A DNA stretch of 13,577 nucleotides from Gemmatimonadota bacterium. Its GTDB lineage: Bacteria; Gemmatimonadota; Gemmatimonadetes; Gemmatimonadales; Gemmatimonadaceae. The notes beneath the pieces are model-generated. The model saw only the letters and a program-made list of their open reading frames with translations, ran no database searches and was not told the origin of the DNA. The stretch is taken from NCBI GenBank assembly GCA_029884515.1, contig JAOUHR010000017.1:1-13577 (forward strand). Reading direction: 5' to 3'. How positions within the stretch are numbered: position 1 is the stretch's first letter; each line of letters begins with the position of its first letter. Below are positions 2,606 through 13,577 of this stretch, piece by piece. The position numbers and the translations under genes were made by a program.

Positions 2606-3649
2606 TCACCCCGCGACGATCGCGGCCCCGCGCTCGCCTAGGATCCGCACGGCATCGCCGAGTCGCGCGAACCGCTCGTCCGTCGTGAGCCCCTTCCGGT
2701 ACCGCGCGAGGATCTGCTGCGCGATCACCGCGATCTTGAACACGCCGAACGCCTCATAGAACGTGCGCGGCCGCATCGCGCGCCCCGCGCGCTCGAGGTA
2801 CCGCTCCCACAGCCGCGCGCGCGTGAGGTTGCCCGGCAGCGCCGTGATGCCGAGCCCGAGCGCGCGGAACGCCGGGTCATCCCCGGCTTCCACCCAATAG
2901 CCAAGCGACGTGCCCACGTCGAGCAATGGGTCGCCGAGCGTCGCCATCTCCCAGTCGAGCACGGCGACGATGCGCCAGGGCTGCGCAGGGTCGAGCACGA
3001 GGTTGTCGTACTTGTAGTCGTTGTGCACGAGGCAGGCGCCCGACTCGCCCGGCTGGTTCGCGTCGAGCCAGGCGGCGAGCGCTTCGATCGTTGGCACGTC
3101 GTCGGTGCGTGACGCGGTCCAGCGCGTGGTCCACCCCTCCACCTGCCGTGCCACGTACCCCATCGGCTTCCCCAGTCCGCCGATCACGGGATCGGCCGGC
3201 GTCGCGCCATGGATCGCGACGAGCGTGTCCACGAACGCCTCGCCGAGCCGCGCGAAGGTCTCGGCGTCGAAACCTCCCGGCGCCTTCGCTCCGCGCAGGA
3301 TCAGGCCCTTCACGCGCTGCATGACATAGAAGGGCGCGCCGATCACCGACGCATCCTCGCAGGTGGCGATCGCGCGGGGGGCCGGCGTGCCGCGCAACTC
3401 GAGCACCGAGAGGATCCGCGCCTCGCGCGGCATGTCGTGCGCGCGCCCGGGTGCGACGCCCACCGGCGGGCGCCGGAGCACGGCCTCACCCTTCGTGGTG
3501 GTGAGCAGGTAGGTAAGGTTCGAGAAGCCGCCGGGGAACTGCGCGACCTCCTTCGCCACGCCGAGCTGCGGCGCGGCCTCGGCGAGCCACTTGTTGAGCG
3601 CCGGAAGCGGCAACTCCTCCCCGCTCCGTACCGGGCGCGTGTCGCTCAC
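2606..3649 (-). CDS. Phosphotransferase (APH/choline-kinase fold), ACAD10/11-type kinase
   Basis: The 347-residue protein belongs to the aminoglycoside-phosphotransferase-like kinase family. Visible parts are a Gly-rich ATP loop (PGGFSN, 39-44) and a strand with VLRRPP (58-62), where Arg stands at or near the usual ATP-binding Lys. The catalytic loop is HNDYKYDN (209-216; Asp211 the expected base, Asn216 a metal ligand), and the metal-binding DWE is at 232-234 (DFG equivalent). VLRRPPxG and HNDYKYDN are typical of the kinase half of ACAD10/ACAD11 rather than of antibiotic-resistance enzymes. It starts with GTG, and that GTG overlaps the TGA of the acyl-CoA dehydrogenase gene by 4 bases (GTGA, 3646-3649), so translation is probably coupled. 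Given its partner, the likely substrate is a hydroxyacyl-CoA (4-hydroxyacyl-CoA to 4-phosphoacyl-CoA). That comes from knowledge of ACAD10/11 and the Pseudomonas lva pathway and is inference here. It is the last gene of its operon. Confidence 0.88.
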   Translation of the reverse strand: MSDTRPVRSGEELPLPALNKWLAEAAPQLGVAKEVAQFPGGFSNLTYLLTTTKGEAVLRRPPVGVAPGRAHDMPREARILSVLELRGTPAPRAIATCEDASVIGAPFYVMQRVKGLILRGAKAPGGFDAETFARLGEAFVDTLVAIHGATPADPVIGGLGKPMGYVARQVEGWTTRWTASRTDDVPTIEALAAWLDANQPGESGACLVHNDYKYDNLVLDPAQPWRIVAVLDWEMATLGDPLLDVGTSLGYWVEAGDDPAFRALGLGITALPGNLTRARLWERYLERAGRAMRPRTFYEAFGVFKIAVIAQQILARYRKGLTTDERFARLGDAVRILGERGAAIVAG

Positions 3650-4833
3650 CGCTTCTCTCGCGTCATCCCCGCCCTCTCGAGGATGCGGCGCGCCACGGCG
3701 CTCTTGTGCACCTCATCCGGACCGTCGTAGATGCGCGCCCCACGCTCGTGCCGGTACCAGTACGCGAGCGGCGTCGCGTCGGTCATCCCCATCGCGCCGT
3801 GCACCTGGATCGCGCGGTCGAGCACGCGCTGCAACACTCCGGCGACGTGGAACTTGATGAGCGAGACGCCGTCGCGTGCGGCCTTTGTTCCGTCGCGCTC
3901 GATCTGCGCGGCCACGTGCAGCACGAGGAGACGGGACGCGTCGATCTCGGCGCGGCACTCGGCGATCCAGTGCTGTACCGCCTGCTGGCGGCCGAGCGGC
4001 TCGCCGGGCGCGAGTTCGCGGGTCGCGGCGCGCGTGACCATCAACCGGAAGGCGCGCTCGCAGATCCCGATCCACCGCATGCAATGGTGGATCCGCCCCG
4101 GGCCGAGCCGCTCCTGTGCGAGCGCGAATCCTTCGCCCTCGGTACCCAGGCGATTCGAGACGGGGACGCGCACGGCGGTGAAGCGGAGCTCCCCATGGCT
4201 CGCGTACCCCGACCCTGGCTCACCCATGACGGAGATGTTGCGCTCGAGCGTGAGGCCCGGCGCGTCCATGGGCACGATGATCTGGCTCGCCCGCCTGTGC
4301 GGCGGCGCGTCGGGCGCGGTCACCGCCATCACGATCGTGAACGCCGCGCCATCCGCCGACGAGGCGAACCACTTGTGCCCCGTGATCACGTAGTCGTCGC
4401 CCTCGCGCACCGCGCGCGTGTCCATCCAGACGGGGTTGGAGCCGGCGAACTCCGGCTCCGTCATGGCGAAGCAGCTGCGCACCTCGCCGCGCGCGAGCGG
4501 CGCGAACCAGCGCATCTTCTGCTCCGCGGTTCCGTGCGAGAGCAGCAACTCCTGGTTGCCGATGTCGGGCGCGTTGCAGTTGAAGAGGTAGTGCCCCACC
4601 GGACTCTCGCCGAGCACGGCACTGACCTCCGCGAACTCGGTGAGCGTGAGGCCCAGACCTCCTTCCGCCATCGGCAAGTGGGGTGCCCAGAGGCCGAGCC
4701 GCTTCACCTCGTCGCGGAGCGCGCGCAGTTCGGGCAGCATCTCCTTGAATGGCCGCGAGAGGTACCGCGGCTCGAGCGGGATCGCCTTCGTCTCGATGAA
4801 GGCGCGGACGCGACCGGCGAGCTCCGAGCTCAT
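3646..4833 (-). CDS. Acyl-CoA dehydrogenase, ACAD10/11-like
   Basis: The 395-residue flavoenzyme has the usual length and order: N-terminal helical domain (1-120), beta domain with the flavin motif CFAMTEPEFAGSNP (121-134), and C-terminal helical domain with QVHGAMGMTD (343-352). The catalytic loop reads RIYDGPDEVHKS (367-378). At the position of the general-base Glu of medium-chain dehydrogenase (YEGT) this protein has Asp370, and DGPDEVH is the form found in the ACAD10/ACAD11 group. Those enzymes are tied to 4-hydroxy (4-phospho) acyl-CoA breakdown as well as to longer or branched acyl-CoAs. The ATG at 4831-4833 is chosen because it gives the family N-terminus and overlaps the SDR stop as ATGA. 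The frame stays open further upstream, but there it only shadows the SDR gene. Product is cytoplasmic and should pass electrons to ETF. Chain length of the substrate cannot be read from sequence. Confidence 0.92.
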   Translation of the reverse strand: MSSELAGRVRAFIETKAIPLEPRYLSRPFKEMLPELRALRDEVKRLGLWAPHLPMAEGGLGLTLTEFAEVSAVLGESPVGHYLFNCNAPDIGNQELLLSHGTAEQKMRWFAPLARGEVRSCFAMTEPEFAGSNPVWMDTRAVREGDDYVITGHKWFASSADGAAFTIVMAVTAPDAPPHRRASQIIVPMDAPGLTLERNISVMGEPGSGYASHGELRFTAVRVPVSNRLGTEGEGFALAQERLGPGRIHHCMRWIGICERAFRLMVTRAATRELAPGEPLGRQQAVQHWIAECRAEIDASRLLVLHVAAQIERDGTKAARDGVSLIKFHVAGVLQRVLDRAIQVHGAMGMTDATPLAYWYRHERGARIYDGPDEVHKSAVARRILERAGMTREKR

Positions 4834-5753
4834 CTGCTTGATCCCGCGCCGCGCGGGGCGCCCGCCTGTTTGGCGGCACTTCCACGGTCCGCCTTCGTCG
4901 CCCCGCGCGCCGACGCCTCGAGCGCCCCCCACTGCTCCTCGGTGAGCGACCCCATCCAGGAGAACTGCCCCCCGCCCTTCAGCTTCTCGCCACCATCGAT
5001 CGTGATGCAATCGCCATTGATGTACGCGCCCGCGTCGGAGAGGAGGAAGGCCGCGAGGTTCGCCAGCTCGATCGGCTCGCCGGCGCGTCGCACCGGGATA
5101 CGGTCGATCGCCGACTCCATCAACGAAGGATCGGGAAGCAGTCGGTCCCACGCGCCCTTGGTGGGGAACGGCCCCGGCGCGATCGCGTTGCAGGTGATGC
5201 CCCGCGGCCCCCACTCCACCGCGAGCGAACGCGTCATCGCGAGCACGCCGGCCTTCGCCGCCGCCGAGGGCACCACGTACGCCGAACCACCCTCTGCGTA
5301 CGTTGTCACGATCGAGAGCACGCGTCCGCCACGACCATCGGCGAGCCACCGCTTGCCGAGGGCGAGCGTGCAGTAGAAGGAGCCGTGGAGCACGATGCCG
5401 AGCACCGAATCCACCGCACGATGCGAGAGCTTCTCCGTCGGGGCGGCGATATTGCCGGCGGCGTTGTTGACGAGCGCGTCCACGCCACCGAAGTGTGTCC
5501 ACACGGCGTCGACCATCCGGTCGACCGCCTCGGGGTCGCGCACGTCGCACGCGATCGGGAACACGTCGCCGCCGGACGCGGCCATCATCTCGTCCGCCGC
5601 CGCACGAAGCACGGGTTCCCGCCGCGAGGCGATCGCGACCTTCGCCCCCAGCTCGAGGAACCGCTCCCCCATCGCACGGCCGAGCCCCGTGCCACCCCCG
5701 GTGATGAGGATGACGCGATCCTGCAGCAGGTCGGGCGCGAACACGGAAGTCAT
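4830..5753 (-). CDS. SDR-family 2,4-dienoyl-CoA reductase-like oxidoreductase
   Basis: The 307-residue protein has the Rossmann NAD(P) motif TGGGTGLG (18-25), a likely NADP-favouring SRR after the second strand (43-45), CDV at 69-71 and NNAAGN (96-101). The usual SDR YxxxK is not present: Lys167 is preceded four residues earlier by Ser163 (VPSAAAK). A Tyr (152, in TTYAEGGS) lies 15 residues before the Lys. This is exactly the arrangement of mitochondrial/peroxisomal 2,4-dienoyl-CoA reductase (Tyr199, Ser210, Lys214 in human DECR1), so I call that subfamily rather than a generic SDR. It would reduce 2,4-dienoyl-CoA esters from unsaturated fatty acids with NADPH. In this operon a role on a related acyl-CoA is possible. 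The ATG at 5753 is preceded by AAGGA at good spacing (CAAGGACCC-ATG). It is the first gene of a three-gene overlapped operon. The last 45 residues are a less conserved, Ala/Gly-rich tail. Confidence 0.88.
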   Translation of the reverse strand: MTSVFAPDLLQDRVILITGGGTGLGRAMGERFLELGAKVAIASRREPVLRAAADEMMAASGGDVFPIACDVRDPEAVDRMVDAVWTHFGGVDALVNNAAGNIAAPTEKLSHRAVDSVLGIVLHGSFYCTLALGKRWLADGRGGRVLSIVTTYAEGGSAYVVPSAAAKAGVLAMTRSLAVEWGPRGITCNAIAPGPFPTKGAWDRLLPDPSLMESAIDRIPVRRAGEPIELANLAAFLLSDAGAYINGDCITIDGGEKLKGGGQFSWMGSLTEEQWGALEASARGATKADRGSAAKQAGAPRGAGSSR

Positions 5754-5811: not shown

Positions 5812-7695
5812 TCAGGGACGAACGGTCTGGATCTCCACACGCGATGGCGCTGCAGGCGTCCGCCAGATCGAGTGGGTCTGTGCAACGTAATCCGACGCCT
5901 TCGCCTTGAAGATGTTCTCCACCCAGGTCTGTGGGTTGCGGTCGATGATCGGGAACCAGGTGCTCTGCACCTGCACCATGATCCGGTGGCCCTTGAGGAA
6001 GCGGTAGCTCTGCGTGTGCAGGTCGATCGTGAAGGGCGTGATCCGGTTCGGGACGAGCGGCACGGGCTTCTCGAATGATTCCCGGAACCGGCCGCGGAAG
6101 ACGTCGTTCGCGACCATCAGCTCGTAGCCGCCGAGCGTGTGGTCGGGCGCGACCTCCTCGGGATAGACGTCGATGAGCTTCACGATCCAGTCCGCGTCGC
6201 GTCCCGTGGTGCTTGCGAAGAGCTTGGCGGTGATGTCCCCCGCAACCACCACGTCCTCGGTGAGCACGTCGGTCGAGTAGGTGAGCACGTCGGGCCGGCC
6301 GTCCACGAAGCGCTGGTCCTGCAACAACCAGGTGCGCCACTTCGATCCCTTCGGGAAGTACGTCGGCTCGATCGGGCGGCGGCGGTAGGGCACCGGCTTG
6401 GCCGGGTCGCTCACGTAGCGGTCCACACCAGCGCTGTCACGCGCGGCCGGCGGCTCGAACGAGAGGCGCCCGTCCGCGCGGAAGTAGAGCGCCTTGATCT
6501 CGGCCTCGGCCGGCGGCCACGCCGTGAACGTGCGCCACCTGTTGCTCCCCGATTCGAATACGGTCGCCTCGGCCGGCTTGAAGTCGCCGAGGTCCTTCAG
6601 GTAGTGCGCGAAGAAGGGCGCCTGGATCCTCTGCCGGTAGTACTCGCCGGTGGGAGAGCCGAAGTCGATCGCGTCGATCGTCTGGCCGGGGCCGTTGCTC
6701 CATCCGCCGTGCCACCAGGGCCCGACCACGAGCGCGTTCTGGTCCCGCGTGTCGTGCGTCTCGAGCGCGCGGTAGATCGTGATGGGCCCGTAGAAGTCCT
6801 CCTGGTCCCACCACCCGGCGACGTTGAGCGTCGGCACGGTGACGCGCGTGAGGTAGGGCTTCATCGCCTGGCGCTGCCAGAAGGCGTCGTAGTTGGGATG
6901 TTCCGTGAAGTCCGTCCACGTCGGCAGCGTGCGGTCCTTCAGGTAGCGCGCCTGCACGTTGGAGAGCGGCCCCAGCGCGAGGTACCAGTCGTACGTGTCG
7001 TACTTGTCGAAGGTGAAGTTCGAGTTCTCCTTGCTCGCTTCGGTGAGGAACGCGTACTCGAACCCGTAGCTCAGGCGGAATGCGCCGTTGTGGTGGAAGT
7101 CGTCGCCGATGAACATGTCGGCGGGCGACGCCTGCGGGCTCACCGCCTTGAGCGCGGGGTGCGGATCGAGCATCCCCATCGCCGCGGTCCACCCGTCGTA
7201 CGAGACGCCGAGCATCCCCACGCGCCCGTTGTTCCTCGGCACGTTGCGAAGGAGCCAGTCGATGGTGTCGTAGGTGTCGGTGCTCTCGTCGATCGCATTG
7301 CGGGGGCCGTCCTGCAGCCGCGGCGGCCGCTGCATCACGAAGGTGCCACCCGACTTGTAGCGCCCGCGGATGTCCTGGAACACGAAGATGTAGCCGTCCT
7401 CGGCCAGTTCCTTGTAGCTCCCGGCGAGCCGGCCCCCGGCGGCGCCCACACCATACGGCGTGCGCTGGAGGAGGAATGGGAGCGGCTCCGCGGCGTTGAT
7501 GGGCGCGAAGATCTCGAGGTGGAGCAGCACGCCGTCGCGCATCGGGACGTCGAAGGTGCTCTGCGCGTAGTCCGTTCGCGCGAAGCGCTGCTGCGCCGGC
7601 AGTACGGCGGAGCCCAGGGCGCCGATGATGAGAGCGAGGAGCAGTGGTCTCGCCGCACGGAACTGCCGCGCGGCGCGGATCGGACGACCGGTCAC
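5812..7695 (-). CDS. Exported CocE/NonD-type hydrolase (X-Pro dipeptidyl-peptidase S15 family)
   Basis: The 627-residue protein opens with Arg-rich residues and a hydrophobic stretch (LLLALIIGALGSAVLPA, 18-34), a signal peptide probably cut before Gln35. The alpha/beta-hydrolase core shows RTPYG (78-82, Tyr81 at the oxyanion position of cocaine esterase) and GVSYDGW with nucleophile Ser165. It also shows GWWDQED (294-300, acid probably Asp297) and GPWWHGG (325-331, His329), which completes the triad. The C-terminal part (about 400-627) is the jelly-roll domain of this family and includes the typical KGHRIMVQVQSTWFP segment. Members cleave esters, amides, cephalosporin side chains or X-Pro dipeptides, so the substrate is open. 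It starts with GTG at 7693-7695, and the only ribosome-site candidate is a weak GGTGAG. A strong hairpin ends 13 bases before the start. The SDR operon begins 58 bases downstream on the same strand; sharing of a transcript is possible but unproven. Confidence 0.9.
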   Translation of the reverse strand: MTGRPIRAARQFRAARPLLLALIIGALGSAVLPAQQRFARTDYAQSTFDVPMRDGVLLHLEIFAPINAAEPLPFLLQRTPYGVGAAGGRLAGSYKELAEDGYIFVFQDIRGRYKSGGTFVMQRPPRLQDGPRNAIDESTDTYDTIDWLLRNVPRNNGRVGMLGVSYDGWTAAMGMLDPHPALKAVSPQASPADMFIGDDFHHNGAFRLSYGFEYAFLTEASKENSNFTFDKYDTYDWYLALGPLSNVQARYLKDRTLPTWTDFTEHPNYDAFWQRQAMKPYLTRVTVPTLNVAGWWDQEDFYGPITIYRALETHDTRDQNALVVGPWWHGGWSNGPGQTIDAIDFGSPTGEYYRQRIQAPFFAHYLKDLGDFKPAEATVFESGSNRWRTFTAWPPAEAEIKALYFRADGRLSFEPPAARDSAGVDRYVSDPAKPVPYRRRPIEPTYFPKGSKWRTWLLQDQRFVDGRPDVLTYSTDVLTEDVVVAGDITAKLFASTTGRDADWIVKLIDVYPEEVAPDHTLGGYELMVANDVFRGRFRESFEKPVPLVPNRITPFTIDLHTQSYRFLKGHRIMVQVQSTWFPIIDRNPQTWVENIFKAKASDYVAQTHSIWRTPAAPSRVEIQTVRP

Positions 7696-7708
7696 GGAAA
7701 CTCACCGA

Positions 7709-7740
7709 GGGAGGGAGGTTCGAAGTTGAACCTCCCTCCC
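7709..7740 (-). terminator. Perfect 13-bp hairpin between yceI and the CocE-type hydrolase gene
   Basis: The arms 7709-7721 (GGGAGGGAGGTTC) and 7728-7740 are exact reverse complements with a 6-base loop. The hairpin begins 12 bases after the yceI stop codon and ends 13 bases before the GTG of the next gene on the same strand. No run of T follows it on the minus strand (TCGGTGAGTTTCC), so it is not a textbook intrinsic terminator. It could end or attenuate the yceI transcript, stabilise its 3' end, or shield the following weak ribosome site. Confidence 0.6.
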
Positions 7741-7752
7741 AAGGGTGTCCAG

Positions 7753-8295
7753 CTACGCGCCGACTGCCTCGCCGGCCTCGACCTGCGCGACCGCCTCGGC
7801 CTCGACGTGCAGCTTCACCTCGTCGGACACCATGAAGCCGCCGAACTCGAGTGCCTGGTTCCAGGTGAGGCCCCACTCCTTCCGGGAGATCTTGCCGGAG
7901 ACGGCCAGCGAGGTGCGCGTGTTGCCCCACGGGTCGGTCACGGTCTCCGAAAGCTCACCAGTGAGGGTCACGGGCCGCGTCACGCCACGGATCGTGAGGT
8001 CACCCGTGATGGTGAGCTCGCCGCGGACGCCGCTCACCTTCGTGGACACGAACGTGAGCTTCGGATACTCGGCCACATCGAAGAAGTCGCCGGAACGAAG
8101 GTGCGTGTCGCGGTCGGCGTTGTTGGTGGAGATGCTGTCGGCGTCGATCTCCATCGAGAGCGAGGTCGGGACGCCGGCGTCGTTCGTCTCGCCGGTTGCG
8201 GTGAAGGAGTTGAACGCGCCCTTCACGGTCGAGATGCCCATGTGCTTGACGGAGAACTCGACGGCGGCGTGGGTCGGATCGATGGTCCAGAGCAT
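7753..8295 (-). CDS. yceI: YceI-family lipid-binding-type protein
   Basis: The 180-residue protein matches the YceI fold along its whole length. It shows WTIDPTHAAVEFSVKHMGISTVKG at the N-terminus, the middle signature RDTHLRSGDFFDVAEYPKLTF, then GDLTIRGVTRPVTL, and SGKISRKEWGLTWN near the end. YceI proteins form a lipocalin-like beta barrel that holds a long polyisoprenoid or similar hydrophobic molecule. The E. coli protein is periplasmic, but this one starts straight into the barrel with no signal peptide and so is probably cytoplasmic. The start at 8295 has a good ribosome site (AAGGA, 8303-8307). The gene lies 116 bases downstream of a MarR gene, and the gap between them holds a strong promoter with an operator-like palindrome. 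A perfect hairpin follows the stop. Physiological ligand unknown; induction by a small hydrophobic molecule through MarR is inference. Confidence 0.93.
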   Translation of the reverse strand: MLWTIDPTHAAVEFSVKHMGISTVKGAFNSFTATGETNDAGVPTSLSMEIDADSISTNNADRDTHLRSGDFFDVAEYPKLTFVSTKVSGVRGELTITGDLTIRGVTRPVTLTGELSETVTDPWGNTRTSLAVSGKISRKEWGLTWNQALEFGGFMVSDEVKLHVEAEAVAQVEAGEAVGA

Positions 8296-8336
8296 GACGA
8301 TGTCCTTGCGGAAGGATGGAAGCAGGTGGTCTCGAG

Positions 8337-8361
8337 GAGATGCACAACCCCTGCATATCTC
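8337..8361 (-). other. Hairpin at the 5' end of the predicted yceI mRNA
   Basis: GAGA-TGCA (8337-8344) can pair with TGCA (8352-8355) and TCTC (8358-8361) across a 7-base loop and a 2-base bulge. ATGCA/TGCAT (8340-8344/8352-8356) is the perfect core. If transcription starts near 8364, this would be the first structure in a leader of about 70 bases and could protect the 5' end. It overlaps the operator-like site, so part of the symmetry may serve protein binding. Weak evidence. Confidence 0.3.
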
Positions 8362-8373
8362 ATAACTAAGAGA
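8357..8373. promoter_or_regulatory. Predicted MarR operator at the yceI promoter
   Basis: ATCTCATAACTAAGAGA contains TCTCA-N4-TAAGA (8358-8371), a near-palindrome in which 4 of 5 half-site positions are symmetric. It overlaps the -10 box and start region of the predicted yceI promoter. A copy with 13 of 17 identical bases lies over the start of the upstream MarR gene (8950-8966). Position and duplication suggest the MarR operator, with repression by blocking RNA polymerase. No binding data are available here. Confidence 0.6.
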
Positions 8374-8399
8374 CTATCACGTTCCGTTGATCCTGTCAA
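8371..8399 (-). promoter_or_regulatory. Predicted sigma70-type promoter of yceI
   Basis: On the minus strand there is a perfect -35 box TTGACA (8394-8399), then a 17-base spacer, then TAGTCT (8371-8376) as a -10 box with only three consensus matches but ideal spacing. The region is markedly AT-richer than its surroundings. Transcription should begin near 8364, leaving a leader of about 70 bases before the yceI ATG. The palindromes at 8357-8373 and 8386-8400 overlap the -10 and -35 regions. Confidence 0.6.
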
Positions 8400-8400
8400 C
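8386..8400. promoter_or_regulatory. GTTGA-N5-TCAAC palindrome over the yceI -35 box
   Basis: GTTGA (8386-8390) and TCAAC (8396-8400) are exact reverse complements around TCCTG. The second arm contains part of the -35 box. It does not resemble the TCTCA-N4-TAAGA site, so if functional it would bind a different regulator. A 5-base arm can arise by chance. Confidence 0.3.
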
Positions 8401-8411
8401 CGCTGTTTCCG

Positions 8412-8951
8412 TCAGGACGCGCCGGAGGTCCCCGGGCCGGAGGCGTCGACGGGCGCCAAGGCGGCCGCCTCGGTGCCCAGGGTCCGCAGCAGGGCGGTCG
8501 CCGCCCGTTGGTCGGGCAGACCCAGCCCGCTCAGGGCCCGACGGATCACCTCGGCGTGGGCGGGGAAGATCCCCGCCACGAGGGCGTGCCCCTTCTCCGT
8601 GAGCGCCGCGAAGCGCGCCCGCCGGTCCGTCGGGCAGGGCAGCCGCCGGACCAGCTTCTTCCGCTCGAGCCGGTCCACCAGGAAGGTGATGCCGCCGCTC
8701 GAGGCGAGGATCTTCTTCTGCACTTCGCCGAGGAGGAGGGGCCCGCCGTGGTAGAGCGCCTCGAGGATCGCGAACTCCCCCGACGAGAGTCCGTGCGCGG
8801 CGATGCTCGCCTCGGCGTGCCGGTTCACCGCGTTCACCGCGCGGTTCAGCACGACGAAGAGCTTGAGCGCGGTCGCCGTCGGGGGGTCGGCGAGGGGCGC
8901 GGCCGCGCCGGGGGGCGGCGCGGGTTGCTTGGCGGAGGGCTTTCTCTTCAT
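8412..8951 (-). CDS. MarR-family transcriptional regulator, probable repressor of yceI and itself
   Basis: The 179-residue protein has a Lys/Pro/Ala-rich N-terminal arm (1-27), then the dimer helix, then the winged helix. LSSGEFAILEALYHGG (55-70) leads into the recognition region with SSGGITFLVDRLERKKLV (84-101), and the wing carries the family signature DRR (109-111). The C-terminal helices (115-160) complete the dimer domain. Cys106, just before the wing tip (LPCPTDRR), is the only cysteine and might make the protein thiol-sensitive, although known redox MarR proteins usually use other positions. The gene lies immediately upstream of yceI, on the same strand. The near-identical operator-like sites at 8357-8373 and over its own start codon suggest control of yceI plus autorepression. 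It begins 40 bases after the channel gene ends and may be partly read from there. The ATG at 8951 has no clear Shine-Dalgarno sequence. Inducing ligand unknown. Confidence 0.9.
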   Translation of the reverse strand: MKRKPSAKQPAPPPGAAAPLADPPTATALKLFVVLNRAVNAVNRHAEASIAAHGLSSGEFAILEALYHGGPLLLGEVQKKILASSGGITFLVDRLERKKLVRRLPCPTDRRARFAALTEKGHALVAGIFPAHAEVIRRALSGLGLPDQRAATALLRTLGTEAAALAPVDASGPGTSGAS

Positions 8952-8966
8952 CTCAGGAATAAGATA
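8950..8966. promoter_or_regulatory. Second copy of the predicted MarR operator, over the MarR start codon
   Basis: ATCTCAGGAATAAGATA contains TCTCA-N4-TAAGA (8951-8964), with the same half-sites and spacing as the site at the yceI promoter (13 of 17 bases shared). The outer ATCT...AGAT arms (8950-8965) are exactly symmetric. It covers the T of the MarR start codon and the bases just upstream. TATCTT (minus strand, 8961-8966) could be a -10 box giving a transcript with almost no leader, in which case bound MarR would block its own promoter. No good -35 box is visible. Confidence 0.55.
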
Positions 8967-8991
8967 TCGCGGTCGAGCTTGCGCGACGAGG

Positions 8992-9831
8992 TCAGGAGGC
9001 CTCGCGTGCCGGCAGCCGGCCCCCGCACTGCTTGCAGAACTCGGCGTCGGCGTCGTGGTCGGCCCGCCCGCATCCGGCGCACGAGACCGCGCGCGGCAGG
9101 CCGCGCGGCCGCGAGGCGCGCTGGATCTCGAGCGTCATGATGCCCGTGGGGACCGCGATGATGCCATAGCCCATCACCATGAGGACGCTGGCGAGCAGCC
9201 GACCGGCCACCGTGATGGGCGCGATGTCCCCGTACCCCACCGTGGTGAGCGTGACGATCGCCCAGTACATCGCCATCGGGATGCTCGTGAAGCCCGCCTC
9301 CGGCCCCTCGATGAGGAACATCAGGGAACCCATGATCGCGACGAGGGTGATCACGGTGAAGATGAAGACCGTGATCTTGTGCCGGCTCGCCTTGAGCGCG
9401 GTCGAGAGCACGCCCGCCTCCTCCACGTACTCCGTGAGCTTGAGGATGCGGAACACCCGCATCACGCGCAGCACCCGCACCAGGGCCAGGAACCGCCCGC
9501 TGGGGAAGAGGAGGCTGATGTAGGTCGGGAGGGTCGCGACCAGGTCCACGATGCCGAAGAAGCTCCGGGCGTACTGCGTGGGGCGCGCGGCGCACCAGAG
9601 GCGCGCGCCGTATTCGACCGTGAAGAGGATCGTGAAGCCCCACTCGAGCCGGCGGAGCAGGGCATGCGCACCGGGCGAGAGCGCCGGCAGGCTGTCGAGC
9701 ATCATCACGAACACGCTGCCGAGGATCACGACGATCAGGGCGACGTCGAACGCCTTGCCGGCGGCGGTGTCGTGATCGAAGATGATCCGGCGCCAGCGCT
9801 CGCGCTGCGTCTGCGGCCGAGGGCTCTCCAC
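8992..9831 (-). CDS. Voltage-gated-type K+ channel subunit with C-terminal zinc ribbon
   Basis: The 279-residue membrane protein has six segments: S1 about 28-46, S2 62-82, S3 91-109 with Asp96, S4 113-132, S5 152-174 and S6 208-236. S4 carries Arg at 113, 119, 122, 125 and 128, the last four every third residue, as in a voltage sensor. The pore loop holds the K+ selectivity filter TVGYGD (197-202). The protein should form a tetramer in the inner membrane that passes K+ on depolarisation. After S6 the cytoplasmic tail (about 237-279) contains CAGC (251-254) and CKQC (266-269), a four-Cys zinc ribbon. That replaces the coiled coil or ligand-binding domain often seen there. It starts with GTG at 9831 and no Shine-Dalgarno is evident; TAGCTT six bases upstream could be the -10 box of a leaderless transcript. 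The GH20-type gene diverges 95 bases away. Confidence 0.9.
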   Translation of the reverse strand: MESPRPQTQRERWRRIIFDHDTAAGKAFDVALIVVILGSVFVMMLDSLPALSPGAHALLRRLEWGFTILFTVEYGARLWCAARPTQYARSFFGIVDLVATLPTYISLLFPSGRFLALVRVLRVMRVFRILKLTEYVEEAGVLSTALKASRHKITVFIFTVITLVAIMGSLMFLIEGPEAGFTSIPMAMYWAIVTLTTVGYGDIAPITVAGRLLASVLMVMGYGIIAVPTGIMTLEIQRASRPRGLPRAVSCAGCGRADHDADAEFCKQCGGRLPAREAS

Positions 9832-9926: not shown

Positions 9927-12098
9927 ATGACACGAGTCCGGTCCCTCAGGTGCTTGTCCGCCCTCGCGTTCCTTCTCCTGGATCCGCGCCCGGTCGCTGC
10001 GCAGGACACGATCGCGGTCGCCCCCGTCGCCACGCCATTGAGCCGCCGCGCCGCCGCCCTCCGCGTGATCCCGTCGCCACGCGAGATCGTGGACGCTGAC
10101 GACCCGATCCGGTTCCGCGGCGTGATCACGATCGACGAGGGGAGTGACCCCGACGATCGTGCCGCCGCGCGCGACTTCATCGACGCGATGCGCGAGCGCG
10201 GGTTCCGCACGGAACTCGGGCCCGTCGCCCGCGGGTGGCACGTGGAGCGGCTCCGGATCGGGAGCCCGGTGGCGACGGACCTGCTCAACGCGCGCCATCT
10301 CACCTTCGACGACGCGATGGTCGCCGAGGGCTATGTCCTGCTCGTGGACCGCCGCGGCGCGCAGGTGATCGCCGCCACCGACGCCGGCGCGTTCTATGGG
10401 TTCCAGACGCTCAAGCAACTCTTCACCGGGCGCGGCGACGAGGCACTCCTGCACCCGGCGGTCATCCGCGACTGGCCCGCGATGCGCTGGCGGGGCGTGC
10501 AGGACGACCTCTCACGCGGGCCGGTGCCCACGCTCGAGTTCCAGAAGAAGCAGGTGCGCACCTTCGCCGCCTACAAGATCAACGTCTTCTCCCCCTACTT
10601 CGAGCACACGCTCGAGTTCAACTCGAACCCGCTCATCGCGCCACCGTTCGGTGCGATGAGCCAGGACGACGTGCGCGAGCTCGTGGCCTACGCCGCGCGC
10701 TACCACGTGATGGTGATCCCGCAGCAGCAGGCGTTCGGCCACCTGCACCACGTGCTCAAGTACGAGCTCTACGCCCCCCTCTCCGAGACCGCCCACGGGC
10801 ATGTGCTCGCCCCCGGCCAGCCCGGATCGCTCGACCTCACGCGCGCGCTCTTCGCCGAGATCGACTCGCTCTTCCCCGCCCCCTTCGTGCACCTCGGCGC
10901 CGACGAGACGTTCGAACTCGGCAAGGGCCAGACCAAGTCGCGCGTGGACTCGCTCACCATCGGGCCGGTGTACGTCGACTACCTGCTGGCCACCGAGCAG
11001 GCGCTCCGTCGCGAGGGCAAGCGCTTCCTCTTCTGGGGCGACATCGCCATGAACAGCCCCGAGCTCGTGAAGACGCTGCCGAAGGACATGATCGCGATCG
11101 GCTGGGAGTATGGCGCACGCTCGGGGTTCGACCGGTTCCTCAAGCCCTTCCGCGACGCCGGCGTCGAGACCTGGGTGGCACCGGGCGTGAGCAGCTGGAA
11201 CCGCGTTTGGCCGAACTTCCCCGTGGCGCTCCCGAACATCCAGGGCTTCGTGCGCGAAGGGCAGGCCGGCGGCGCCACGGGCATGCTCAACACCACCTGG
11301 GACGACAACGGCGACGCGCTCTTCAACCAGACGTGGCTCGGCGTCCTCTTCGGCGCCGCAGCGGCGTGGCAGCCTGGTGAGTCGAGCATCGAGGCGTTCC
11401 AGGCGTCATTCGGCCTGCAGTTCCATGGCGACACCACCGGAAGGGTCGACGCCGCGCAGCGGCACCTCGATGCGGCGCAGGCGGCGCTCCAGGAGTCGAA
11501 GGCGGGGGACGCCTCGAGCTACCTCTTCTTCGTCGACCCGTACACGGACGAGGGTGTGGTGGACCTGCTGCGCCTGCGCCCCGTCCTCTCGCGCGTGCGC
11601 ATCCACGCCGAGTCGGCGCTGGTGCTCATCGCGCAGGCGAGGGCGCAGCGCCACCTGCGCGAGCTCGACGCGCTCACGGCGATGGAGGTCGGCGCGCGCC
11701 GCATCGATTGGATCGGTGCGAAGTTCCAGTTCGCCGACGAGATCGCGCGGTCGTTCGCACGCACGCTCGACCCCACGCGCACCACGCCGGTGACCTGGGT
11801 GGACCTCGCGGACCTCTCCGGGATCAACGGCAAGCTGCAGGACCTGCGCGATGGGTACGTGCTCAACCGCGAGCTCTTCGAGCGCGCCTGGCGGCTCGAG
11901 AACCGCCCCTACTGGCTGCAGAACGGCCTCACGCGCTACGACGCCGAGATCAACACCTGGGTACAGCGTATCAACGCGATGGACCGGGCGCGCCGGCGGT
12001 ATGCGCGCGAGCGCAAGCTGCCCACGGCTCAGGAACTGGGCATCCCTGCGGCGCTGGTGGCGATGCCCGTGGGGCTGGGCAGCGGCCAGCGCAAATAG
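9927..12098 (+). CDS. Exported divergent GH20-type beta-N-acetylhexosaminidase
   Basis: The 723-residue protein has a signal peptide (LSALAFLLL core, likely cut after VAA before Gln about residue 27). An N-terminal zincin-like GH20b domain (about 40-165) ends in GAFYGFQTLKQL. The TIM-barrel catalytic domain starts at MRWRGVQDD (about 190) and contains HLGADE (322-327), with Asp326-Glu327 as the expected catalytic pair of substrate-assisted hexosaminidases. Unlike standard GH20 enzymes, the strand after KINVF (217-221) reads SPYFEHT instead of the usual HWHLTDDQ, and residues 452-461 (GMLNTTWDDN) replace the common cluster with Trp-Gly-Glu. A C-terminal, mostly helical region of about 220 residues follows. 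It probably releases N-acetylhexosamine or a relative from glycans outside the cytoplasm, but the altered substrate pocket makes the sugar uncertain. No clear Shine-Dalgarno precedes the ATG. It ends 12 bases before a convergent gene. Confidence 0.82.
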   Translation: MTRVRSLRCLSALAFLLLDPRPVAAQDTIAVAPVATPLSRRAAALRVIPSPREIVDADDPIRFRGVITIDEGSDPDDRAAARDFIDAMRERGFRTELGPVARGWHVERLRIGSPVATDLLNARHLTFDDAMVAEGYVLLVDRRGAQVIAATDAGAFYGFQTLKQLFTGRGDEALLHPAVIRDWPAMRWRGVQDDLSRGPVPTLEFQKKQVRTFAAYKINVFSPYFEHTLEFNSNPLIAPPFGAMSQDDVRELVAYAARYHVMVIPQQQAFGHLHHVLKYELYAPLSETAHGHVLAPGQPGSLDLTRALFAEIDSLFPAPFVHLGADETFELGKGQTKSRVDSLTIGPVYVDYLLATEQALRREGKRFLFWGDIAMNSPELVKTLPKDMIAIGWEYGARSGFDRFLKPFRDAGVETWVAPGVSSWNRVWPNFPVALPNIQGFVREGQAGGATGMLNTTWDDNGDALFNQTWLGVLFGAAAAWQPGESSIEAFQASFGLQFHGDTTGRVDAAQRHLDAAQAALQESKAGDASSYLFFVDPYTDEGVVDLLRLRPVLSRVRIHAESALVLIAQARAQRHLRELDALTAMEVGARRIDWIGAKFQFADEIARSFARTLDPTRTTPVTWVDLADLSGINGKLQDLRDGYVLNRELFERAWRLENRPYWLQNGLTRYDAEINTWVQRINAMDRARRRYARERKLPTAQELGIPAALVAMPVGLGSGQRK

Positions 12099-12110
12099 GC
12101 CAGCGGGTCC

Positions 12111-12539
12111 CTAGTCGCGGACGCGGCCGCGCACCTTGGCACGGCCGCGCTCCAGCGATCGCCGCACCGCGCGTTCGGTCGCATCCAACGCGTGGTCGAA
12201 CGCCGCCCGGTGATCTGCCTCCACCACCTCCACCACGACGCTCTCGTGTCGCGAGAGGACGACCTTCACGGCGCAGCGCATCGAGGGCGCGCCCTTGGGT
12301 CCTCCCACGTCCTCGAGCCGGACGCTGATGCGGTCGATCGCTTCGGCGAACTTGCCGAGCTTGAAACCGCAGCGCTCGCGAATGTGGCCGTCGAGCGCCT
12401 CGTCCACATCGATGCCGCGGGCCCGGATGGCGACCGGCGTGCGGGGGGAATCCGTGCGGCCGCGGACCGTCCGCGGCTCGAGGTTGGCGGCGATGCCCAT
12501 CGGGGCGCGGCGGGTGGTCTTGCTCCGTCGTGGTGCCAT
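12111..12539 (-). CDS. HPF/RaiA-family ribosome-associated (hibernation) protein
   Basis: The 142-residue product carries a basic N-terminal extension of about 33 residues (KTTRR, EPRTVRGR) followed by an S30AE/HPF domain. That domain contains VAIRARGIDVDEALDGHI (36-53), KLGKFAEAIDRISVRLEDV (60-78) and a strand-helix end with VVVEVVEADHRAAFDHALDATERAVRRSLE (101-130). Proteins of this family bind the small ribosomal subunit between head and body and block mRNA and tRNA sites in stationary phase or stress. It lacks the extra C-terminal domain of long HPF, so a short HPF/RaiA-like action is expected. The ATG at 12539 is chosen because a clear ribosome site (AGGGAGAG) precedes it at good spacing; the frame is open further upstream without one. 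It is convergent with the GH20-type gene and divergent from the Asp-box protein. Confidence 0.82.
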   Translation of the reverse strand: MAPRRSKTTRRAPMGIAANLEPRTVRGRTDSPRTPVAIRARGIDVDEALDGHIRERCGFKLGKFAEAIDRISVRLEDVGGPKGAPSMRCAVKVVLSRHESVVVEVVEADHRAAFDHALDATERAVRRSLERGRAKVRGRVRD

Positions 12540-12562
12540 GGGTGGCTCTCCCTGTCGGAATC

Positions 12563-12578
12563 GTTCGTTTGTCCGAAC
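12563..12578. promoter_or_regulatory. GTTCG-N6-CGAAC palindrome in the divergent promoter region
   Basis: GTTCG (12563-12567) and CGAAC (12574-12578) are exact reverse complements. They lie 24-39 bases upstream of the HPF-type start within the 166-base gap between that gene and the Asp-box protein gene. It could be an operator affecting one or both genes. With only 5-base arms, chance is a real alternative. Confidence 0.3.
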
Positions 12579-12656
12579 TATCGCCGGTGGACCGGGCACG
12601 GCCAACCCTACGGACCATCCCTGACGGACGACCCAACGCTCCACGAGCGGCTGCCG

Positions 12657-12662
12657 TATGAT
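12657..12662 (+). promoter_or_regulatory. Possible -10 box for the Asp-box protein gene
   Basis: TATGAT matches the sigma70 -10 consensus in 5 of 6 bases and lies 43 bases upstream of the ATG at 12706, in an otherwise GC-rich gap. No acceptable -35 box is found at 16-18 bases; CTGACG at 12621 is too far away. Tentative. Confidence 0.3.
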
Positions 12663-12705
12663 TGGGCCGTCCCTTGCCGTCCCACCCCAGACCCAGTTCC
12701 CCACT

Positions 12706-13577
12706 ATGCGAGTGCATCGGTTCCTTTCGGCGTGCGCCCTGTCGGCCCTCGCCGCGACAAGCCTCCACGCCCAGGCGATCGGTCAGGGCGACATCGACGC
12801 CCTGCGATGGCGCAACATCGGCCCCGCCAACATGGGCGGTCGCGTCGCGGACGTGGAGGGCATCCCCTCCCCGTCGAAGACGTTCTTCGTGGCCGCCGCC
12901 GGCGGCGGCGTGTGGAAGACCACCAACAACGGCACCACCTTCCGCTCGGTGTTCGAGACCTACGGCGTGGCGTCGATGGGCGACATCGCGATCGCGCCGA
13001 GCGACACGAACACGATCTACCTCGGCACGGGCGAGCCCAACTCGCGCAATTCGATCTCCCCGGGCGGCGGCGTCTTCAAGTCCACCGACGGCGGCCTCAC
13101 CTGGACCTTCGTAGGCCTCAAGGAGACGCAGCACATCGGGCGGATCGTGGTGCACCCGACCAACCCGAACATCGCGTGGGTCGCGGCCCTTGGCGCGGCG
13201 TGGACCCCGAGCAAGGACCGCGGGCTCTACAAGACGACCGATGGCGGGAAGACCTGGGTGAACAAGAAGTTCATCAACGACACCACGGGATTCGTGGACA
13301 TCAGCATGCATCCGAAGGACCCGAACACGCTCCTCGCGGCCAGCTATTCCCGGCTCCGGGGCCCGTACTTCCTGCAGTCGGGCGGCGTGGGCTCTGGCCT
13401 CTGGAAGTCCACGGATGGCGGCGACACCTGGACCGAGGCGAGGGGCGGCGGGTTCCCCTCCACGATGAAGGGGCGGATCAGCGTCTCGTACGCGCCGTCG
13501 GACGCGCAGATCGTCTACGCGATGGTCGAGGCCGACACGGCCGCGAACCCGAAGCCGGTGAAGGGCGCTAAGGCGCA
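12706..13577 (+). CDS. Exported sortilin/BNR (Asp-box) propeller protein, N-terminal part (3' end outside window)
   Basis: The frame opens with ATG at 12706 and stays open to the window edge (290 whole codons). It starts with a signal peptide (FLSACALSALAATSLHA, likely cut before Gln). It then shows a run of beta-propeller repeats of the VPS10/sortilin and BNR type, with Asp boxes (S/T-x-D-x-G-x-T-W) at residues 126-133, 177-184 and 235-242 and a degenerate one (TTNNGTTF) at 72-79. A spacing of 51-58 residues fits one propeller blade each. The first repeat region begins LRWRNIGPANMGGRV, common in large exported bacterial propeller proteins of about 1000 residues. Such proteins are often annotated as glycosyl hydrolases because sialidases share Asp boxes, but the boxes are structural and prove no activity. 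Function unknown; surface or periplasmic location likely. It diverges from the HPF-type gene with 166 bases between. Confidence 0.88.
   Translation, partial: MRVHRFLSACALSALAATSLHAQAIGQGDIDALRWRNIGPANMGGRVADVEGIPSPSKTFFVAAAGGGVWKTTNNGTTFRSVFETYGVASMGDIAIAPSDTNTIYLGTGEPNSRNSISPGGGVFKSTDGGLTWTFVGLKETQHIGRIVVHPTNPNIAWVAALGAAWTPSKDRGLYKTTDGGKTWVNKKFINDTTGFVDISMHPKDPNTLLAASYSRLRGPYFLQSGGVGSGLWKSTDGGDTWTEARGGGFPSTMKGRISVSYAPSDAQIVYAMVEADTAANPKPVKGAKA

Follow-up and report, generated by a model that had tools for sequence, protein, structure and literature searches.

Described systems for acyl chains hydroxylated at C4

Mammals clear 4-hydroxy fatty acids by means of ACAD10 and ACAD11, as was shown in 2024-2025 (PMC12440821, the available text of which states that the flavin mechanism is unclear), and the available text of PMC11342911 postulates a 2,4-dienoyl-CoA intermediate for these enzymes, which was not observed. 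Activity has been published for ACAD10/11, for LvaA/LvaC and for an orthologous pair from Burkholderia (PMC12440821 and PMC11342911, in their available text). LvaC has a published identity of 56-62% to the ACAD11 and ACAD10 domains. In the lvaABCDE operon of Pseudomonas putida and the lva cluster of P. citronellolis (available text of PMC6692424), as at the locus described here, a kinase, an acyl-CoA dehydrogenase (ACAD) and a short-chain reductase (SDR) are encoded together. The mammalian proteins (PMC12440821, PMC11342911) have the same pairing of domains as our locus and share the HHCMR motif with it; but in mammals kinase and ACAD are fused, whereas here they are separate polypeptides, joined in the operon by an SDR of the DECR1 type.

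Locus organization

The window (the whole stretch of Gemmatimonadota DNA that was analysed, 13,577 nucleotides) contains genes for an SDR, an ACAD and a kinase, the reading frames of which are all uninterrupted from start to stop (Table 1). The initial annotation had described three minus-strand genes linked by two 4-base overlaps, and both overlaps can be read on that strand; the motifs that it had singled out are likewise in place, HNDYKYDN (from residue 209) and DWE (from 232) in the kinase and DGPDEVH (from 370) in the ACAD. A gene for a CocE/NonD-type hydrolase upstream may be co-transcribed with the operon. It is not a constant partner: its cluster is found upstream again only in L039 and L048, and a different cluster occupies the position in L041-L046 (an amidohydrolase by Pfam on L043).

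Table 1. The operon and its upstream neighbour (positions in the window)
Feature	Position	Strand	Remarks
SDR (P0003)	4830..5753	minus	307 aa; DECR1-type, predicted NADPH 2,4-dienoyl-CoA reductase
ACAD (P0002)	3646..4833	minus	ACAD10/11-type dehydrogenase
Kinase (P0001)	2606..3649	minus	347 aa; GTG start; APH-fold, predicted 4-hydroxyacyl-CoA kinase
ATGA overlap	4830..4833	minus	ACAD start codon and SDR stop codon
GTGA overlap	3646..3649	minus	Kinase start codon and ACAD stop codon
CocE/NonD-type hydrolase	5812..7695	minus	58 bases upstream of SDR start

This is not an lva operon, since it has no CoA ligase, leaves no room for LvaB and encodes an ACAD lying outside the ACAD11 clade. A counterpart of LvaE, the levulinyl-CoA synthetase, is absent: 11 genes were called in the window, and by Pfam none of them is of the AMP-binding kind, which agrees with the earlier remark that the operon lacks a CoA ligase. 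Because the SDR, ACAD and kinase genes overlap, there can be no small LvaB-like gene between kinase and ACAD (the P. citronellolis cluster is also without LvaB, according to the available text of PMC6692424). The published identity of LvaC implies that it should fall in the ACAD11 clade, and not with P0002. Elsewhere in the organism's own genome (77% complete) there are eight matches to AMP-binding ligases (PF00501), seven to 3HCDH and one to ETF, representing the rest of beta-oxidation.

The kinase and the dehydrogenase

Among solved structures, ACAD11 is the best match of P0002 (267 bits, 40% identity), ordinary ACADs reaching at most 145 bits. In the alignment, Arg242, His250, Arg253 and Asp370 of P0002 correspond to R626, H634, R637 and D753 of ACAD11, where Arg626, His634 and Arg637 are phosphate-site residues (taken from the available text of PMC12440821). 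All four are kept in 130/130 ACAD10/11-like rows (some genomes having been entered twice), and are absent from the five other ACADs found in the organism's own genome. Those five have glutamate at the place of Asp370, where ACAD11 has its catalytic aspartate (Asp753), so that the initial annotation was right to see an aspartate at the usual glutamate position. In the tree, ACAD10/11-like rows are separated from ordinary ACADs with support of 100/100, and the grouping with the latter that had been proposed as a check on the assignment was not seen in these sequences. Best match, the four 4-phosphoacyl-CoA-site residues and tree position together bear out an ACAD10/11-type dehydrogenase, and residues and tree led us to reject an ordinary ACAD. 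The P0002 clade (100/99) and the ACAD11 clade (100/100) are nevertheless separate branches, P0002 lying outside the latter, whose members are 54-63% identical to ACAD11.

The kinase, P0001, is 33% identical to the kinase of ACAD11, which belongs to a different clade, and is nearer to 9o56 (44%); its nearest solved kinase bears the name aminoglycoside phosphotransferase. Asp211, Asn216 and Arg168 are equivalent to D220, N225 and R176 of ACAD11, and P0001 has the catalytic HxD and Asn, the metal-binding Asp and the CoA-contact Arg (equivalent to Arg176), in agreement with the ACAD10/11-type kinase of the earlier reading. H209, D211, N216, D232 and R168 are kept in 112/112 kinase rows aligned, an alignment restricted to rows of at least 240 aa and, among the named loci, to those with kinase matches longer than 800 bases. 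The published kinase residue R86 had no equivalent that could be matched by numbering; an Arg-Glu pair (75-76) of P0001 is found at the position of the helix C glutamate.

A survey of co-occurrence, as the initial annotation had proposed, covered 150 genomes of the phylum: the ACAD was found in 41 of them, and the kinase in exactly these. The two share a contig in 37 and lie no more than 1.5 kb apart in 36, and no more than 150 bases apart in 28, an association that exceeds chance. Of the 80 named ACAD loci, 61 have a kinase at most 1.5 kb away from the ACAD, and with L179 there are 62 that have one in the stretch examined; at the other 18 no kinase was found in the stretch examined, which extended at least 4 kb on both sides in 11 of them. 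(Five loci have apparent kinase matches to the L174 protein that are in fact SDR matches, because that protein is a fusion.) The partnership is wide, being found in several bacterial phyla and in haloarchaea, often with an SDR, and fusions occur in more than one arrangement. Kinase and ACAD are fused in both orders (kinase-ACAD in P0049, ACAD-kinase in P0051/P0061/P0106, with 59-60% identity to P0002 and 45-49% to P0001), and 42 proteins among the matches listed are kinase-SDR fusions. To judge from these sequences, the two kinds of fusion tie the parts of the operon together.

Annotated records that we examined give such genes only general names: 'phosphotransferase family protein', 'aminoglycoside phosphotransferase', 'acyl-CoA dehydrogenase' and similar.

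A DECR1-type reductase in the place of a classical SDR

The best solved match of P0003 is mitochondrial DECR1 (PDB 1w6u; 252 bits, 46% identity, 130 of 280 aligned residues). N101, Y152, S163 and K167 align with the same residues at chain positions 115, 166, 177 and 181, which we take to be the active site of DECR1. P0003 groups in the tree with DECR1 and eight stand-alone relatives (98/96), and its best model is NCBIfam PRK07677 (2,4-dienoyl-CoA reductase, equivalog), at 278.5 bits under the cut-off of 318. A change of catalytic residue was sought in the operon-linked reductases and not found, the Asn being kept. Match, aligned residues and tree group uphold the proposal of a dienoyl-CoA-reductase-type SDR. 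Unlike mitochondrial DECR1, P0003 is bacterial, and its gene belongs to an operon of overlapping genes in which its partners are of ACAD10/11 type. The further suggestion that it reduces a 4-oxo precursor, in the manner of LvaD, is unlikely, because P0003 is of DECR1 type and has serine where classical SDRs have their catalytic tyrosine; LvaD (assumed to be a classical SDR) reduces a 4-keto group, and in the absence of the YxxxK tyrosine we reject such a ketone reductase for P0003.

Operons with the same SDR-ACAD-kinase order are found in Algoriphagus, Cecembia, Caldilineaceae and other Gemmatimonadota, those in the P0002 clade having ACADs 57-68% and kinases 41-60% identical to the proteins described here, but their SDR belongs to a different subfamily, which has the YxxxK tyrosine. 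At the 80 named loci, the slot upstream of the ACAD holds a classical SDR in 35 and a DECR-type SDR in three, all Gemmatimonadota; SDR queries detected none there in 36 (gene calls were empty at L063 and L064 and nearly so at L056, and any SDRs present would be missed). In this lineage, then, the DECR1-type SDR stands at the position of the classical SDR of other operons, and tree and genus survey fit a single lineage-restricted replacement. Within the genus, the SDR is present in 10 of 13 ACAD-bearing genomes versus none of four without ACAD (Fisher p 0.015), and it adjoins the ACAD in nine of the ten (in the tenth, G154, it is on another contig). The SDR is not obligatory for the kinase-ACAD unit: three of the 13 ACAD-bearing genomes are without it, one of them 98% complete, and G027 and G083 of the sister genus have kinase and ACAD without SDR. 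Five ACAD columns (72, 76, 189, 208 and 263) differ between 10 reductase-linked and 45 classical-SDR-linked rows; none is a tested catalytic residue, and they may simply track phylogeny.

Predicted function and alternatives

We think it probable, arguing from sequence, that the operon serves bacterial beta-oxidation as an auxiliary unit for C4-modified acyl chains, which would provide a bypass from 4-hydroxyacyl-CoA to 2-enoyl-CoA. The kinase would phosphorylate the 4-hydroxyl of 4-hydroxyacyl-CoA, using ATP; the ACAD10/11-type flavoenzyme would expel the phosphate to give 2-enoyl-CoA, with only transient redox change of FAD; and the SDR would reduce 2,4-dienoyl-CoA, another form of C4-blocked chain, with NADPH. 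We infer all three activities, and also that the SDR serves the same flux as kinase and ACAD; the putative substrate would be a 4-hydroxy or 4-hydroxy-2-enoyl acyl-CoA, with no chain length set. A job comparable to that of ACAD10/11 on hydroxy or oxidised acyl-CoAs, as first suggested, is thus retained as a prediction for kinase and ACAD, and its 4-oxo-reducing SDR is abandoned. Active-site residues, trees, co-occurrence and gene fusions all lend good support to the predicted kinase/ACAD route, by which 4-hydroxyacyl-CoA would be turned into 4-phosphoacyl-CoA and this into enoyl-CoA. Weighing against the auxiliary unit are the lack of a ligase in the operon, the named loci that show no kinase or no upstream SDR, and the genomes of the genus and its sister genus that have the ACAD but not the SDR. 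Oleate-hydratase 10-hydroxystearate as a source of 4-hydroxy chains is unsupported, because PF06100 was found in none of the 150 genomes of the phylum (the control in Lactococcus was detected).

DECR1 is known for its part in the beta-oxidation of fatty acids whose double bonds are at even-numbered positions. The SDR might do just this for linoleate-type chains, sharing merely a transcript with a kinase and ACAD that handle 4-hydroxy chains, so that the operon would be a general 'C4 roadblock' kit and not one pathway. Apart from matching the known job of DECR1, this would suit the three ACAD-bearing members of the genus without SDR and the stand-alone DECR1-like SDRs of eight genomes outside the family (four with ACAD on another contig, four without an ACAD match); but all genomes of the genus that have the SDR also have the ACAD, nearly always beside it, and the SDR stands at the position where operons of other phyla have a partner SDR, one that in further bacteria forms a single protein with the kinase. 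We regard this as a substantial possibility, though the less probable one. It is rather unlikely that the pair dehydroxylates a different CoA ester (4-hydroxyacyl-CoA with a branched, aromatic or side-chain acyl group) in place of straight fatty acyl-CoA: the separation of the P0002 clade from that of ACAD11 and the widely varying neighbours in other taxa (MaoC, CoA transferases, ABC transporters, histidine phosphatase) are in its favour, but in the relative L054 the ACAD and kinase genes have between them one that scores as a long-chain acyl-CoA ligase, and the reductase resembles a fatty-acyl enzyme, DECR1. The substrate may nonetheless differ from that of ACAD11, since the ACAD is only distantly related to it and outside its clade, and the kinase is nearer to 9o56. 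Very improbable is an ordinary acyl-CoA dehydrogenase beside a kinase for an unrelated substrate (sugar, choline-like or drug), which the generic Pfam names and the name of the nearest solved kinase might suggest, but against which stand residues, tree, co-occurrence and fusions, the matching of drug-named solved kinases (macrolide, hygromycin) to P0001 only at E 0.001 or worse, and a thiamine-kinase score of 29 bits versus a cut-off of 299.

For the preferred auxiliary unit, a closer coupling is a tentative and somewhat doubtful extension: in this lineage the ACAD might release 2,4-dienoyl-CoA, the intermediate postulated for ACAD10/11, either always or when substrate enters as 4-hydroxy-2-enoyl-CoA, and the SDR would complete the reaction with NADPH. 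On entry as 4-hydroxy-2-enoyl-CoA the flavin would never be charged, and would therefore have no hydride to give back. If the coupling is real, the operon would be a natural split of the 'rebound' mechanism of ACAD10/11, and would give bacteria a route for products of lipid peroxidation, for example 4-hydroxy-2-enoic acids. What appears unusual is a predicted 2,4-dienoyl-CoA reductase at a place that in related operons is usually taken by a reductase of a different kind; by pairing it with a free-standing ACAD10/11-type ACAD, the operon would offer a natural system in which the postulated intermediate might be caught.

Three overlapping genes and their families

The minus strand of the window carries three overlapping genes (coordinates in the table), for a kinase (P0001), an acyl-CoA dehydrogenase (ACAD, P0002) and a short-chain dehydrogenase (SDR, P0003), which the initial annotation had proposed as a possible operon of 4-hydroxyacyl-CoA catabolism; the ATGA and GTGA overlaps that it described can be read directly in the sequence letters, and every motif that it listed was found in the three proteins. 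The source genome is 2.74 Mb, in 548 contigs, and 77% complete. Upstream of the operon on the same strand (5812-9831) lie genes for a CocE/NonD hydrolase, YceI, a MarR regulator and an ion channel, a block whose order is kept in a locus of the same genus (L039); 9954-13575 holds a GH20 hexosaminidase-like gene, a ribosome hibernation (S30AE) protein gene and a Sortilin/Vps10-like gene truncated by the contig end.

Operon genes of the window, and a phosphatase gene at a related locus (L062)
Feature	Coordinates	Strand	Remarks
SDR P0003	window 4830-5753	minus	307 aa, open frame
ACAD P0002	window 3646-4833	minus	395 aa, open frame
Kinase P0001	window 2606-3649	minus	347 aa, GTG start, open frame
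Histidine phosphatase family gene	L062:6727-7449		near kinase or ACAD; Pfam

In Pfam, P0001 is an APH protein (170 bits), P0002 has the N-terminal, middle and C-terminal ACAD domains, and P0003 belongs to adh_short_C2. Among solved structures, the kinase is best matched by 9o56 (282; no mention of this code was found in the literature searched), 3dxp (168) and ACAD11 (152), and drug-named kinases (macrolide, hygromycin) match it only at E 0.001 or worse. ACAD11 and 4hr3 head the matches to P0002 (260-267 bits), ordinary ACADs falling to 145. For P0003 the order is DECR1 (2,4-dienoyl-CoA reductase; 252, with a second DECR1 at 246), 3imf (223), PECR (172), DECR2 (167) and the rest at 139 or less; its top NCBIfam model, 2,4-dienoyl-CoA reductase PRK07677, scores 278.5 bits, below the cut-off of 318, the second model reaching 194.5.

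Active-site residues and clades

The 4-phosphoacyl-CoA site of mouse ACAD11 comprises R626, H634, R637 and D753, the first three being absent from conventional ACADs (Rashan et al., PMC12440821). P0002 carries R242, H250, R253 and D370 at these positions, and all four are kept in each of 130 aligned ACAD10/11-like rows (a set of 50 and a set of 80 named loci, some genomes being in both) and in both solved rows. Five other ACADs found in the window's genome lack all four and have Glu where P0002 has its Asp. All 112 kinase rows compared conserve H209, D211, N216, D232 and R168, whose aligned counterparts in ACAD11 include D220, N225 and R176; the next-best APH match of the window's genome, tried as row 113, was unalignable and was excluded. 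R86 of PMC12440821 finds no match in the alignment numbering; at the helix C glutamate, 107 of the 112 rows have an Arg-Glu pair.

A 54-row ACAD tree separates ordinary ACADs (100/100), and contains a haloarchaeal pair, an ACAD11 clade of 17 rows (100/100) and a P0002 clade of 28 (100/99), which with two further rows forms a group of 30 (98/90). Members of the P0002 clade are 38-44% identical to ACAD11, those of the ACAD11 clade 54-63%. Placed by published identity figures alone, LvaC would be expected in the ACAD11 clade, because it is 62% identical to the ACAD10 domain and 56% to that of ACAD11 (PMC11342911). The kinase tree does not strictly mirror the ACAD clades.

Distribution of the kinase-ACAD pair

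At E thresholds of 1e-60 for the ACAD and 1e-20 for the kinase, both genes were found in an identical set of 41 of 150 phylum genomes; they share a contig in 37, lying within 1.5 kb in 36 and within 150 bases in 28, and are on one strand in 33 of the 37. At E 1e-40 or better, the SDR query matched 53 of the 150, and its DECR-type matches adjoin the ACAD only in the window's own genus and one sister genus; in G052 a classical SDR (one with the YxxxK Tyr) near the pair also passed the threshold.

A scan of GTDB contigs gave at least 593 pattern matches and at least 582 relatives, the best 80 of which were taken as named loci (ACADs 57-82% identical; contig titles of Bacteroidota members, Chloroflexi, Acidobacteria, Myxococcota, Verrucomicrobia and others). 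Among these 80, the kinase lies within 1.5 kb of the ACAD in 61, and within 1.5 kb upstream of the ACAD there is a classical SDR in 35 (29 of which also have the kinase) and a DECR-type SDR in three, all Gemmatimonadota; no upstream SDR was detected in 36 despite at least 1.2 kb of sequence there. No kinase was detected at 11 same-clade ACAD loci with at least 4 kb on both flanks (L115, L123, L132, L133, L135, L138, L140, L142, L150, L169 and L180).

Plasmids also carry a kinase near the ACAD, for example in Azospirillum, Ideonella, Pseudoalteromonas, Deinococcus, Streptomyces, Rhodococcus, Cytobacillus and haloarchaea. In six of 16 plasmid loci examined among 80 matches listed (L083, L084, L088, L090, L092 and L098), a histidine phosphatase family gene is annotated near kinase or ACAD, as likewise reported for P. 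citronellolis (PMC6692424). Such a phosphatase may clear dead-end phosphoacyl-CoA. The window operon contains no such gene. In two sister-genus genomes a Fic-domain protein gene adjoins the ACAD (L047:4601-5614, by Pfam, where it sits between ACAD and kinase; L046:208-1221, by clustering), and in a Deinococcus plasmid an annotated HicAB toxin-antitoxin pair (L084:4559-5130) lies between the ACAD and SDR of a kinase/ACAD cassette.

A probable change of reductase

Alignment of 24 SDR genes from around the window and 44 loci of 40 phylum relatives revealed two types. Eight, from the window, its five genus relatives and two sister-genus loci (in one, L046, 3.8 kb from the ACAD), have Ser at the position of the YxxxK Tyr and, like DECR1, a Tyr eleven residues before it. 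The YxxxK Tyr is present in the remaining 16: ten are directly upstream of the ACAD, four directly downstream, one behind the kinase and one more distant. In a 54-row SDR tree (PECR and DECR2 rows forming long branches), the eight join those of L105 and L108 in one group of operon-locus SDRs (99/98), enclosed with eight stand-alone phylum SDRs in the DECR1 group (98/96); 26 classical SDRs of kinase/ACAD loci, of more than one kind, fall outside it. In 17 genomes of the genus, no near relative of a classical slot SDR came up (best match to the L048 query, 40% or less); most upstream classical SDRs of the best 80 named loci share 44-61% identity with one of six Gemmatimonadota queries. This pattern is consistent with a single replacement of a classical by a DECR-type SDR within the window's lineage.

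Among genomes of the genus, 10 of the 13 that bear the ACAD have the DECR-type SDR, against none of the 4 that do not (Fisher p 0.015); it adjoins the ACAD in nine of the ten (in G154 they are on separate contigs). An ACAD occurs with no DECR-type SDR in G152 (98% complete; named locus L162, at the same place, has the kinase), G157 and G158, and in G027 and G083 of the sister genus, and these five count against a strict need for it.

Gene fusions

In one of 141 loci tested, L174 (one of the 80 named loci), two of the three parts are fused in frame: kinase and classical SDR (3011-4939), the ACAD following about 60 bases on. A search with this protein found 763 proteins. Among the 120 listed, 42 longer than 500 aa (P0005-P0046, including the L174 protein as P0005) have APH and SDR domains; they are mostly about 610 aa, 41 have the Ser...YxxxK pattern, and where named they are called SDR, glucose 1-dehydrogenase or phosphotransferase/dehydrogenase. 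Three of them lie on 4.4-4.8 Mb contigs (Ferrimonas sp. YFM, Ferrimonas sp. SCSIO 43195 and Pleionea litopenaei), which makes assembly error an unlikely source. Four listed matches are kinase-ACAD fusions; identity to P0002 is 59-60% in their ACAD parts, and identity to P0001 is 45-49% in their kinase parts. P0049 has the kinase first, the animal domain order (with HHATR for HHCMR, His and Arg being retained), and P0051, P0061 and P0106 have the ACAD first; these bacterial fusions, which occur in both domain orders, are parallels of animal ACAD10/11. Relatives of the window's proteins thus show more than one fused arrangement of the same partnership.

Possible roles in 4-hydroxyacyl-CoA breakdown

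ACAD10/11, LvaA/LvaC and a Burkholderia ortholog pair, which could substitute for the ACAD10 domains, phosphorylate 4-hydroxyacyl-CoA and expel the phosphate to give 2-enoyl-CoA (PMC11342911). Redox-active FAD is required by ACAD10/11, with no acceptor consumed (PMC12440821), and a transient 2,4-dienoyl-CoA, re-reduced by FADH2, has been proposed but not observed (PMC11342911). 4-Hydroxy intermediates result when the hydroxyl sits at an even-numbered position, ricinoleate being an example (PMC12440821). We infer that the operon's kinase and ACAD would perform the same conversion as the published pairs, and that its DECR1-type SDR would reduce 2,4-dienoyl-CoA, for which the ACAD itself and even-numbered double bonds are both possible sources. 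If the substrate entered as 4-hydroxy-2-enoyl-CoA, oxidation by the ACAD would not be needed and the FAD would be left without electrons for the last step; we hypothesize that a separate dienoyl-CoA reductase is therefore required in that case.

Kinase-ACAD pairs of this type are already known (lva, ACAD10/11), one bacterial pair having been shown to work, and the operon's core of kinase and ACAD is expected. In the literature searched we found no paper linking a DECR-type reductase to such a pair (one query yielded PMC11342911 and PMC8919083, an inventory of zebrafish peroxisomes), and both the SDR exchange and the fusions are absent from the published passages compared. The dienoyl hypothesis bears on the open mechanism of ACAD10/11.
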